NCBI RefSeq assembly: GCF_019884725.1
Contig: NZ_CP082322.1
Coordinates: 3,100,001-3,164,000 of the forward strand
Source: Leucobacter tenebrionis
GTDB lineage: Bacteria > Actinomycetota > Actinomycetes > Actinomycetales > Microbacteriaceae
DNA: 64,000 bases
Reading direction: 5' to 3'
The notes under the pieces were generated by a model, which saw only the letters and a list, made by a program, of their open reading frames with translations, ran no database searches and had not been told where the DNA came from. Positions 10,924 through 57,750 of this stretch are shown here, piece by piece. Made by a program: the position numbers and the translations under genes. Position 1 is the stretch's first letter; the number at the start of each line of letters is the position of its first letter.

Positions 10924-11283
10924 CGCGGGCCGGTCCGCTGGCCGCTGGCCGCTGGCCGTTGTCCCGATGGCCGATGGCCCGACGGCCGCCGGCCTGCCCT
11001 CCGGCCGGGCTCCGGATGCCGTCGTCCCGACGGCCGCCGGCCTGCTGGCCCGCCGGGCTCCGGCTGCCTGTCTCCTCTGACGAAACCGCGCCGTTGTAGA
11101 CCTCCTGCACAGTTGTAGACCTCTCATCCCGTAGGAGAGGTCTACAACGGTGCAGCAGGTCTACGGCTGTCAGACCGTCAGAGGTTCGCCCACAGGCGCG
11201 GCTTCGGGGGTGAGCGCGCTGAGTTGTCCACAGATCATCACGGAGGCGGCTCACTGCCCGCAGACATCGGCGAGGCTCGTCGC
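10924..11283. repeat. Intergenic repeat region: 48-base duplication and nested hairpins
   Basis: No gene is visible in this 360-base stretch. The left half is low-complexity GC sequence in which CCCGACGGCCGCCGGCCTGC occurs at 10978-10997 and again at 11026-11045, with similar bases after each copy. This makes a 48-base imperfect tandem duplication. The right half holds the nested hairpins annotated separately (11090-11167). The remainder, to 11283, leads into the nuclease-fold gene and shows no clear ribosome-binding site. Confidence 0.7.
11090..11167. repeat. Nested hairpins carrying the motif GAGGTCTACAAC (left flank)
   Basis: The inner stem is 14 perfect base pairs: 11112-11125 (GTTGTAGACCTCTC) with 11135-11148, and a 9-base loop. 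The outer stem pairs 11090-11110 with about 11150-11167 (GTGCAGCAGGTCTACGGC), with one mismatch and a 3-base bulge. Thus four copies of the AGGTCTAC core lie here, two on each strand. The same motif forms the hairpin and tandem units at 12400-12501. Confidence 0.85.
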
Positions 11284-12387: not shown

Positions 12388-12399
12388 CAGCAGCGGCCA

Positions 12400-12501
12400 T
12401 TGCAGACCTCACGCACCGCTGCAGTGCCGCCGCACGGTGCGTGAGGTCTACAACGGTGCGAGAGGTCTACGACGGTGCGGAGGACTGCAGTGGTGCGGAA
12501 G
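12400..12501. repeat. Hairpin plus 19-base tandem units carrying GAGGTCTACAAC (right flank)
   Basis: Bases 12400-12418 (TTGCAGACCTCACGCACCG) pair with 12435-12453 with one mismatch. From 12436 the unit GGTGCGnGAGGTCTACnAC repeats: 12436-12454, 12455-12473, a decayed copy at 12474-12491, and the start of another at 12492. The array begins 12 bases after the stop of the nuclease-fold gene and could also act as its terminator. Confidence 0.85.
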
Positions 12502-39023: not shown

Positions 39024-39282
39024 CAGATCAGTATATGGCGGGTATCCGTTTCATGCAGTGCTATCGACGACGAAATCAGGGGTGAACAGTGCGTGTCGGT
39101 GCCGATACCGTGACCGGGAGGGAGTGGGATCTCATGGGATCCCGCCGCTCCAATCGAAATCGGGGTCGCTCGCGGCGCTTCTGCGTGGTGAGAAGCGCCG
39201 CAAGCGACCCCGAATTACAGGCGGGCCCGTCCGGGCGGCCGAGGGGTGCCGTCTGGCCGCCCGACCCGGGTGGAGCTGCGAG
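39024..39282. other. Intergenic space dominated by one large hairpin
   Basis: No gene is visible. It holds the MFS gene's upstream region (AT-richer near 39024-39060), the hairpin at 39157-39216 and GC-rich sequence leading to the end of the convergent helicase gene. Confidence 0.6.
39157..39216. repeat. 26-base-pair hairpin with TCGGGGTCG outer stem
   Basis: Arms at 39157-39182 and 39191-39216 pair over 26 positions with two mismatches and an 8-base loop (GCGTGGTG). The outer part, TCGGGGTCG / CGACCCCGA, is the same as in the hairpin at 56345-56399. It lies downstream of the minus-strand helicase gene and could end its transcript. Confidence 0.85.
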
Positions 39283-40905: not shown

Positions 40906-41270
40906 GTGGACCTTTCTTTCTGTGCAGCGGGCGACAGGGGCGCCCGGGCCGGGCATCACCGGATGCCGGCGGGCCGGAGGCCGTGCGTCGCTGCTGGATC
41001 GGCGAGTGCGCGGGATCGCGCATCCGTTCGCCGCGGAGAGTCGCGGTGCCGTGGCACCGGTGCGGATCGCCGGGCTGCGAGAGTCGAGCCGGGGATCACG
41101 CTTGAAAATCAGCGACGATGGGGTCGAACTCGGTCGACCCGTGAAGCCCACTCTACCGGACGCCGCTGCGAACCGCCCCCGAGATACGGATCTCGCACGC
41201 CCAACCGGGATCAGGCCTGTGAAATCCGTATCTCGACGCAGCCATCCGCTTGATCTGGCATGATCGCTCC
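40906..41270. other. Divergent region between helicase and GNAT-AAA genes, possible long helicase leader
   Basis: No gene is visible in this 365-base space. It should contain promoters for both genes. Bases 41180-41191 (CGAGATACGGAT) and 41224-41235 (ATCCGTATCTCG) form perfect 12-base arms around 32 bases, 35 bases before the plus-strand start. DEAD-box helicase genes often have long regulated leaders, so an RNA element is possible, but I see no known one. Confidence 0.5.
41180..41235. repeat. Inverted repeat CGAGATACGGAT / ATCCGTATCTCG
   Basis: Perfect 12-base arms at 41180-41191 and 41224-41235 flank a 32-base interior. It may be an operator or hairpin ahead of the GNAT-AAA gene. Confidence 0.75.
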
Positions 41271-56344: not shown

Positions 56345-56399
56345 TCGGGGTCGTTTTCGTGCGTGTCGCGCGACGCGACACGCACGAAAACGACCCCGA
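56345..56399. repeat. Perfect 26-base-pair hairpin with a three-base loop
   Basis: Arms at 56345-56370 and 56374-56399 are perfectly complementary with loop CGA. The stem begins TCGGGGTCGTTTTCGTGCGT. Its outer nine bases equal those of the hairpin at 39157-39216. Confidence 0.9.
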
Positions 56400-56485
56400 A
56401 TCGGCGACACGGCCGAAAGTGACCCCGAAACGGATGGCGGTGCGGGGTCGGCGACGCCGCGCGTCCCGCGCCCCGCGCACACGGC

Positions 56486-56519
56486 AGCGGGCCCCGGTTC
56501 CGAAGAACCGGGGCCCGCT
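56486..56519 (-). terminator. Terminator-like hairpin for alanine dehydrogenase
   Basis: A perfect 15-base-pair stem, AGCGGGCCCCGGTTC at 56486-56500 with GAACCGGGGCCCGCT at 56505-56519, has a CGAA tetraloop. It is 18 bases beyond the stop of the minus-strand alanine dehydrogenase gene. Confidence 0.8.
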
Positions 56520-56536
56520 GAGCAGCGACTGGAGGC

Positions 56537-57664
56537 TTACGCCTGTGCTGCGAGGGTCTCCTCGAGCGAAGCCGAGGCGAGATCCGGGAACGCCTGGGCG
56601 ACACCGTGGTTGGTGATGACGCCCTCGTGCGCGTTGAGGCCCTTGGCGAGCGAGGCGTCGTCGTTCAGCGCCTTCACCCAGCCCTTGTCGGCGAGCGCGA
56701 CCACGTAGGGGAGCGTCGCGTTGGTGAGGGCAGCCGTCGAGGTCTCGGGCACCGCGCCGGGCATGTTGGCGACGCAGTAGTAGATCGAGTTGTGCACCGG
56801 GAAGGTGGGGTCATCGTGCGTGGTGGGGCGCGAGTTCTCGAAGCAGCCGCCCTGGTCGATGGCGATGTCGACGAGCACCGAGCCCTGCTTCATCTGCGCG
56901 ACCATCTCGTCGGTGACGAGCTTCGGAGCCTTCTCGCCCGGGATCAGCACGGAGCCGATGACGAGGTCGGCCTCCTTGAGCGCCTCAGTGATGTTGTGCG
57001 CGTTCGAGGTGCGGGTCTGGATGCGACCGTTGAACTCGTCCTCGAGCTGCTTGAGGCGGGGGATCGCGATGTCGATCACGGTCACCTCAGCGCCCATGCC
57101 GTAGGCGATGCGCGCGGCCTGCTCACCCGCGGCGCCGCCGCCGATCACGACGACCTTGCCGCGGCGGGTGGCGGTCACGCCGCCGAGGAGGATGCCGCGA
57201 CCGCCGTTGGCCTTCATGAGCGAGTAGGCGCCGACCTGCACCGAGAGACGCCCCGCGACCTCCGACATGGGGGCGAGGAGCGGCAGACCGCGGTTCGGCA
57301 GCTGCACGGTCTCGTATGCGATGGCGGTGGTGCCCGACTCGAGCACGGCCTCGGTGAGAGCCTTCTCGGCTGCGAGGTGCAGGTAGGTGAAGAGCACCTG
57401 GCCCTTGCGCAGCTTGTCGTACTCGGAGGCGATGGGCTCCTTGACCTTGAGGATCATGTCGGACTGCGCCCACACGTCGTCGGCGCCCTCGACGATCTTG
57501 GCGCCGGCGGCGATGTACTCCTCGTCGGTGATGGCCGAGCCGAGGCCGGCACCGGCCTGCACCAGCACCTCGTGGCCGCGACGAGCCAGCTCGAAGACGC
57601 CCGCCTGCGTGATGGCGACGCGGTTCTCATTGTTCTTGATTTCGGTAGGGATACCGACGCGCAT
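56537..57664 (-). CDS. ald: Alanine dehydrogenase
   Basis: The 375-residue NAD-dependent enzyme is close to the usual 371. It starts [20 protein letters not shown], with substrate/catalytic residues Lys75 (ILKVKEP) and His96 ([10 protein letters not shown]) at the family's positions. The NAD-binding loop is [20 protein letters not shown], and [20 protein letters not shown] follows. It interconverts L-alanine and pyruvate plus ammonia. An upstream in-frame start would add 23 residues; ATG 57664 has GGAG before it. It is divergent from an Lrp-type gene that probably controls it. Confidence 0.95.
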
Positions 57665-57750
57665 GGTCTGCTCCAGAATGTTCGGAATGCGATAAGGGTC
57701 CGTCCGTCTGCTGATCGTCAATTGGCAGATCACGACATGGGATGCCTCGA

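Follow-up and report, generated by a model that had tools for sequence, protein, structure and literature searches.

The DNA analysed here (the window) is a stretch of 64,000 nucleotides, bases 3,100,001-3,164,000 of a Leucobacter tenebrionis genome that consists of one contig of 3,379,830 bases, and positions are those of the window unless stated otherwise. An inverted-repeat search of the 64-kb window identified two arms of 26 nt (56345-56370 and 56374-56399) that are 100% complementary and separated by 3 nt, confirming the perfect 26-bp hairpin with a three-base loop described in the initial annotation. It was described there as the longest perfect inverted repeat seen; of the 20 inverted repeats listed for the window, no other has fully complementary arms. 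At a pairing chance of ~0.28 per position, estimated from the local G+C content, simple arithmetic predicts ~1e-10 such perfect repeats per 64 kb. The three-base loop is no family trait: the central bases differ among copies, and their near-symmetry here is incidental.

The hairpin is flanked by a 168-aa open reading frame (ORF) and by an ald-like gene, the product of which is presumably similar to alanine dehydrogenase (Table 1). Position conservation in relatives was a check proposed together with the hairpin. In five relatives read (G008, G051, G038, G030 and G028) the site is empty, the 168-aa ORF lying so near the end of the ald-like gene that a palindrome array would not fit; in two others, L. 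chironomi (G029) and G025, ~10 kb separates the two bordering genes (loci L327 and L328).

Table 1. Coordinates of the features discussed (window positions, except for the last row, which gives positions in the genome)
Feature	Position	Strand	Remarks
Neighbouring ORF, 168 aa	55692..56198	-	No Pfam match at E 0.001
Type A palindrome	56345..56399	.	Convergent half-sites: TCGGGGTCGTTTTCGTGCGTGTCGC (+, start 56345) and its inverse (-, start 56377), offset 32
Third type A half-site	56406..56428	-	Direct repeat of the right arm, 29 bp onward; zero mismatches
Separate G+C-rich hairpin	56485..56520	.	Just past the ald-like gene, probably its terminator; self match at 3156485-3156520 of the genome
Neighbouring gene, ald-like	56537..57733	-	Adjoins the hairpin region
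Type B palindrome	39160..39213	.	Outer TCGGGGTC as in type A, inner stem different
Palindrome of the second, unrelated family (CGAGATACGGATCTCGCA)	41180..41235	.	Convergent pair in the window
Nuclease gene	246255-247235	-	Flanked by type B palindromes, 246155-246212 and 247412-247469

The outer TCGGGGTCG/CGACCCCGA of the hairpin recurs at 39160-39168 and 39205-39213, within the region (39157-39216) for which a shared outer stem and a different inner stem had been noted. A pattern search of the whole genome for palindromes of the form TCGGGGTC..GACCCCGA yielded nine, so the pair in the window does not stand alone: five are of type A, which has an inner GTGTC and includes 56345-56399, and four are of a looser type B, which includes the copy at 39160. 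One type B copy (L057, G000:C1:2561715-2561769) apparently lies within an ORF near its start and recalls palindromic elements that add a peptide to genes.

The type A half-site TCGGGGTCRNTTTNNNNCGTGTC has 59 matches genome-wide at up to three mismatches (reversed-pattern controls: 3 and 2 matches). Forty-five of these fall in 15 type A clusters, and the remaining 14 are isolated, 13 of them with three mismatches. Every one of the 15 clusters contains exactly one convergent pair, at an offset of 32, and 12 carry extra half-sites at exactly 29 bp. All non-convergent neighbours are direct repeats at this distance (nine forward, six reverse), and the extra half-sites flank the pair on one side or the other, never on both. 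When the 15 type A copies are aligned, their ends are TCGGGGTC/GACCCCGA, point changes aside.

A covariance model built from the 15 type A palindromes was run on 100 genomes and matched 19, all of them Leucobacter (the present genome and 18 of the 53 other genomes of the genus), with 1 to 53 matches per positive genome, both strands counted. Inner stems vary between Leucobacter species, while the outer GGGGTC is kept and is common to Leucobacter species and the Arthrobacter group. This pattern, along with the presence of 15 clusters of type A and four copies of type B, bears out the initial suggestion of a family of elements whose outer part is conserved and whose inner part varies; neither refuting condition named with the hairpin, a total of two copies in the genome or an outer stem that is not conserved, applies. 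When named genomes were scanned by pattern, 117 loci were returned, which include Leucobacter, Arthrobacter and close genera. The same scan found loci in two Streptomyces (L173 and L196), five loci of one Verrucomicrobia metagenome-assembled genome (MAG; L113, L126, L140, L159 and L200) and one of a Phycisphaerae MAG; the inner stems of these look unrelated, and the Streptomyces and Verrucomicrobia loci have GGGGTCA ends.

The length from GGGGTC to GACCCC was then compared among relatives, the scan permitting 49 to 73 bp and the palindrome finder applied to its loci ~40 to 97 bp. The length is 61 bp in 41 of 41 L. chromiireducens copies and 51 bp in 18 of 18 L. chironomi copies; L. chromiiresistens has lengths of 51 (2 copies), 52 (11) and 62 bp (5), four further Leucobacter have 52 (4), 61 (2) and 62 bp (2), and the Arthrobacter group has 51 bp in 36 of 37 copies and 50 bp in the other. 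Copies in the present genome measure 50 (2), 51 (9) and 80 bp (4), the last of which we read as arrays measured across an additional unit. Lengths are thus quantised at 50-52 or 61-62 bp. In L. chromiireducens, the central ~14 positions mostly hold 0.1-0.5 bits of information, yet the length is constant. A protein contacting both half-sites from the same side of the double helix would be expected to leave such steps of one helical turn around a free spacer. The fixed or helically stepped spacing around a centre of free sequence therefore suggests a pair of half-sites in double-stranded DNA, rather than the near-cruciform that was first envisaged.

The two arms also change together. Among the 41 L. 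chromiireducens copies, in which the arms are 97.8% paired, 30 cells are changed on both sides, compared with a mean of 10.3 after shuffling and above all 500 shuffles, an excess that kinship among the 41 rows can inflate. Four pair types occur at column 11, yet in 37 of the 41 copies (36 by strict identity) the two arms match there. Co-variation where any base is tolerated is not predicted by simple half-site recognition and is the main loose end of our interpretation; copying from arm to arm, or pairing between arms, may act as well.

Co-varying stem pairs are what would be expected if the palindromes were bidirectional transcription terminators or other RNA hairpins, spread or conserved in intergenic regions. 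Their locations fit this in part: by a rough gene guess from G+C at third positions, no gene contains any of the 15 type A clusters, one of which overlaps a guessed start, and some lie within 45 bp of a stop codon. However, the gaps that hold them are convergent, co-directional and, in two cases (L042 and L044), divergent; no run of more than two T's occurs within 15 nt on either side of any of the 15 clusters; and the ald-like gene already has a hairpin of its own. An RNA loop, moreover, does not require fixed spacing, a free centre and steps of ~10 bp, and termination would leave unexplained the matching palindromes that surround one family of nuclease genes, described below. A search of the window against Rfam gave no match above the gathering score. 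We regard a role in termination or as RNA hairpins as unlikely.

The half-site reading calls for a protein, and a candidate emerged from the element loci themselves. At two Arthrobacter loci, palindromes 1,052 bp apart enclose a single ORF, and a search of the element loci revealed relatives of this ORF beside palindromes in L. chromiiresistens, two L. chromiireducens strains and the present genome. This yielded six genes of a putative nuclease family with palindromes on both sides, one of them in the present genome (Table 1). A profile made from the six has matches in 49 of the 54 genomes of the genus at E 1e-6 and in 189 of 297 genomes sampled from the order at 1e-20.

Because a GNAT acetyltransferase gene in Arthrobacter (L194, 6659-7362) also sits between two near-identical palindromes, possibly by chance or as captured cargo, bracketing alone is no proof of a link, and a mispairing test was applied. 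For this test, 90 loci of the genus were taken among the matches listed (30 returned by the search, 59 further, mostly better-scoring ones, and one PF18741 locus) and combined with 29 loci of other genera; the PF18741 locus, which lacked a profile match, was dropped, and some matches of similar score, as well as weaker ones, lie outside the set. The resulting 118 loci included 116 with usable flanks. The upstream and downstream palindromes match each other (score of at least 16) in 45 of these 116 loci, as compared to 26 of 13,340 mispaired flanks (0.19%); the strict match holds for 31 of 88 Leucobacter loci and 14 of 28 loci in other genera. In a one-sided test, a palindrome was located in one flank and the opposite flank was searched for it; at 55 of 78 loci the true flank outscored every one of 40 foreign flanks, where ~2 would be expected. 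The other 71 of the 116 loci fail the strict match, including 38 that have no palindrome scoring at least 13 on either flank; these may be decayed, or the nuclease family may have other life styles. The palindromes differ strongly from locus to locus (e.g. CGGTGTAGCCATATTGC, ATGCCCCAGTTTG and GTGCGCCTTCTGGGC), and their similarity tracks that of the nucleases weakly (Mantel r 0.19, p 0.0005, 45 proteins).

Orphan palindromes resemble those of the resident unit in the present genome (type B), in L. chromiireducens, in G034 and in G047. At least 12 covariance-model matches are found in nine of nine genomes with a nuclease at E <=1e-100 versus two of 45 others (G029 and G034; Fisher 1e-8), with cut-offs that were picked after viewing the data and with four of the nine genomes having contributed to the nuclease profile. 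Palindromes that bracket nucleases in G048 and G022 (L. chromiiresistens) have almost the same arm as type A (..TTCGTGCGTGTCGC). Neither the four profile hits of the present genome nor the two of L. chironomi G029, which has many type A-like copies, include a nuclease bracketed by type A palindromes; type A copies, including the one at 56345-56399, would therefore be orphans or be served by the type B enzyme.

The genome holds other palindromes as well. The family CGAGATACGGATCTCGCA has 76 matches genome-wide at up to three mismatches (controls: 0 and 2), 62 of which form 31 convergent pairs, 30 at an offset of 38 and one at 39, with no further offset seen in the range of 18-120. One such pair lies ~180 bp downstream of a nuclease-family match (1685704-1686393 of the genome); the nearest copy on its upstream side is ~2 kb off. 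Palindromes with a GTTGTAGACCTC-type motif at 11096-11164 and 12397-12456 of the window look like yet another repeat family, with no nuclease tied to them.

The bracketed protein is ~310 aa long, and both structure and profile comparisons indicate that its C-terminal domain resembles that of I-Bth0305I (PDB 3r3p), which we take to be a Vsr-like homing endonuclease of the EDxHD type. An AlphaFold (AF2) model has a mean pLDDT of 69.8 and is good C-terminally and weak in the N-terminal third. Using Foldseek, the top match of this model was the I-Bth0305I catalytic domain (E 3.9e-3, TM 0.78 of the target), followed by mitoribosomal proteins with poor TM and then by PvuRts1I and TnsA at E 0.06-0.1; no Foldseek match reached E 0.001. 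A profile search retrieved the I-Bth0305I chain at E 0.019. A homing-endonuclease catalytic fold is thus predicted from the model, with weak E-values. Five of the six members weakly match the MTES_1575 REase/DUF559 families (PF18741 and PF04480), with a best E of 5e-6 for PF18741; in the two proteins looked at in detail, these matches are C-terminal and below the curated cut-offs, and a search of two proteins against NCBIfam found no match. PF18741 was dropped as a family marker, matching 53 of 54 relatives (34 of the same genus), often in frames of more than 1000 aa. Ratios of dN/dS of 0.14 between the two L. chromiireducens strains (at a dS of 1.5, near saturation) and 0.21 between two Arthrobacter nucleases suggest that the coding sequence is under purifying selection.

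The bracketed unit of the present genome lies between two convergent genes whose Pfam matches are gyrase/topoisomerase IV subunits, and which we take to be parC and parE. This gap was read at 29 loci of relatives, of which 20 were measurable: eight have 40-245 bp, too short for the unit, and other, long gaps measure 0.6-1.3 kb. No palindrome is present in the short gaps of G028 and G030, G004 has a terminator-like hairpin only, and G001 has a solo palindrome of another family. G021 has a fragment of the nuclease, enclosed by two palindromes that match each other and form a family of their own. By coordinates, the nuclease is also at this site in G050, G036 and G043, and a fragment of it in G008; no matching palindromes were seen around the nucleases of G036 and G043. 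These observations support repeated gain and decay of the unit at the parC-parE site. The gap itself (G000:C1:246130-247570, L055) looks like a hot spot, occupied in different relatives by nucleases, whether intact or decayed, by a solo palindrome, by other inserts or by near nothing.

For solo palindromes, 10 positions are common to the two L. chromiireducens strains, in a biased sample for which both sides had been preselected, and among eight L. chromiiresistens sites checked by position in G016, seven were occupied or had a gap too long for an empty site and the eighth was not assignable. No precise empty site for the orphan palindromes was obtained in a search among sister-species sites; of the flanks compared for a target duplication or insertion boundary, one comparison was noisy and in another the flanks were too diverged for a boundary to be read. 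As most of the tested sites are common to sister species, recent movement, and with it the recent acquisition first named as one option for such hairpins, is weakly supported, although the 56345-56399 site is empty in five relatives.

Shared positions in sister species, together with dyad sites at fixed spacing and the AbiEi-like similarity of two of the six proteins, would also suit operator-type sites, through which a regulator such as the AbiEi-like portion of the protein would control its own gene and many others, without any mobility. We consider this rather unlikely. Copies occur in convergent and divergent gaps alike, and one lies 3' of the nuclease gene with no obvious regulatory use. 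The distribution is patchy, with matches in 18 of the 53 other genomes of the genus; the parC-parE site holds the unit in some genomes, decayed remains in others and nothing of it elsewhere; and the protein has catalytic-domain similarity to a nuclease.

On balance, we think it probable that 56345-56399 is an orphan copy of the putative site recognised by a Vsr-like nuclease that would drive a REPtron-like element. The hairpin would be an inverted pair of ~23-26-bp half-sites at fixed spacing, and the full unit would comprise a palindrome, the gene for a ~310-aa protein with a C-terminal Vsr-like domain, and a second palindrome. Most likely, a nuclease dimer would bind both half-sites as double-stranded DNA and cut; repair by recombination would then place copies of the whole unit, or of its ends, between genes, and decay or loss of the gene would leave solo palindromes. 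The comparative pattern is the solid part of this scheme; we infer the binding, cutting and movement from it, and the nuclease function is putative.

More tentatively, the units could represent an undescribed class of mobile element, in which the gene of a Vsr-like homing nuclease lies between two copies of its own dyad site and solo sites are spread through Actinobacteria, with nuclease and palindrome co-diversifying, several orthogonal pairs per genome and specificity residing partly in helically phased spacing. No report of such a nuclease-palindrome system was found among the matches listed from the open-access PMC literature, as judged by titles and abstract openings, with most subscription papers outside this collection. 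If the proposal is true, the driver of REP-like palindromes in many Actinobacteria is a nuclease and not a transposase, the bracketed proteins are candidate site-specific nucleases, and many natural nuclease/palindrome pairs with readable specificity are at hand, making the origin of dispersed palindromes directly testable.

The closest known layout is that of REPtrons, which are described as dispersed intergenic palindromes with an enzyme gene flanked by the same palindrome (PMC3733652). As in REP/RAYT systems, many palindromes are dispersed between genes, copies flank an enzyme gene, and palindromes persist in genomes without the enzyme. The enzyme here, however, is not a Y1 HUH transposase, and in place of a GTAG-tagged hairpin there are two half-sites with a fixed spacer of free sequence, the GTAG end being absent by eye from the 15 copies. 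The REP-associated Y1 tyrosine transposase (PF01797) was not found in the present genome in a search that was positive, as a control, in five of 14 named genomes, and a RAYT was accordingly rejected as the driver. This weighs likewise against the alternative in which the palindromes are classical REPs or MITEs, mobilised by a transposase of the tyrosine or DDE type, and the nuclease is a hitch-hiker, a reading to which the REPtron-like layout and the head-to-tail, BIME-like arrays of half-sites would lend themselves. The transposase search covered the Y1_Tnp type; bracketing is tied to the nuclease family, with palindromes that match across the gene, and we judge the hitch-hiker reading highly unlikely. 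A survey of REP sequences names one Arthrobacter in a table, and the word endonuclease does not occur in its text (PMC12306157).

Among Vsr-like proteins, the MTES_1575-type domain has been described within large HEPN fusions, as one of the domains of these proteins (PMC3710099). Unlike these fusions, the protein bracketed by palindromes stands alone at ~310 aa. It shares a catalytic-domain fold and weak sequence similarity with I-Bth0305I, and, like the gene of a freestanding homing endonuclease, its gene is present or absent at one site (parC-parE) among relatives. In contrast to the I-Bth0305I type, it is a freestanding intergenic gene between palindromes, with solo copies of these elsewhere, and no intron or intein context is apparent in the units read. 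The system would therefore be new by its enzyme, while its layout alone could make it a REPtron variant.
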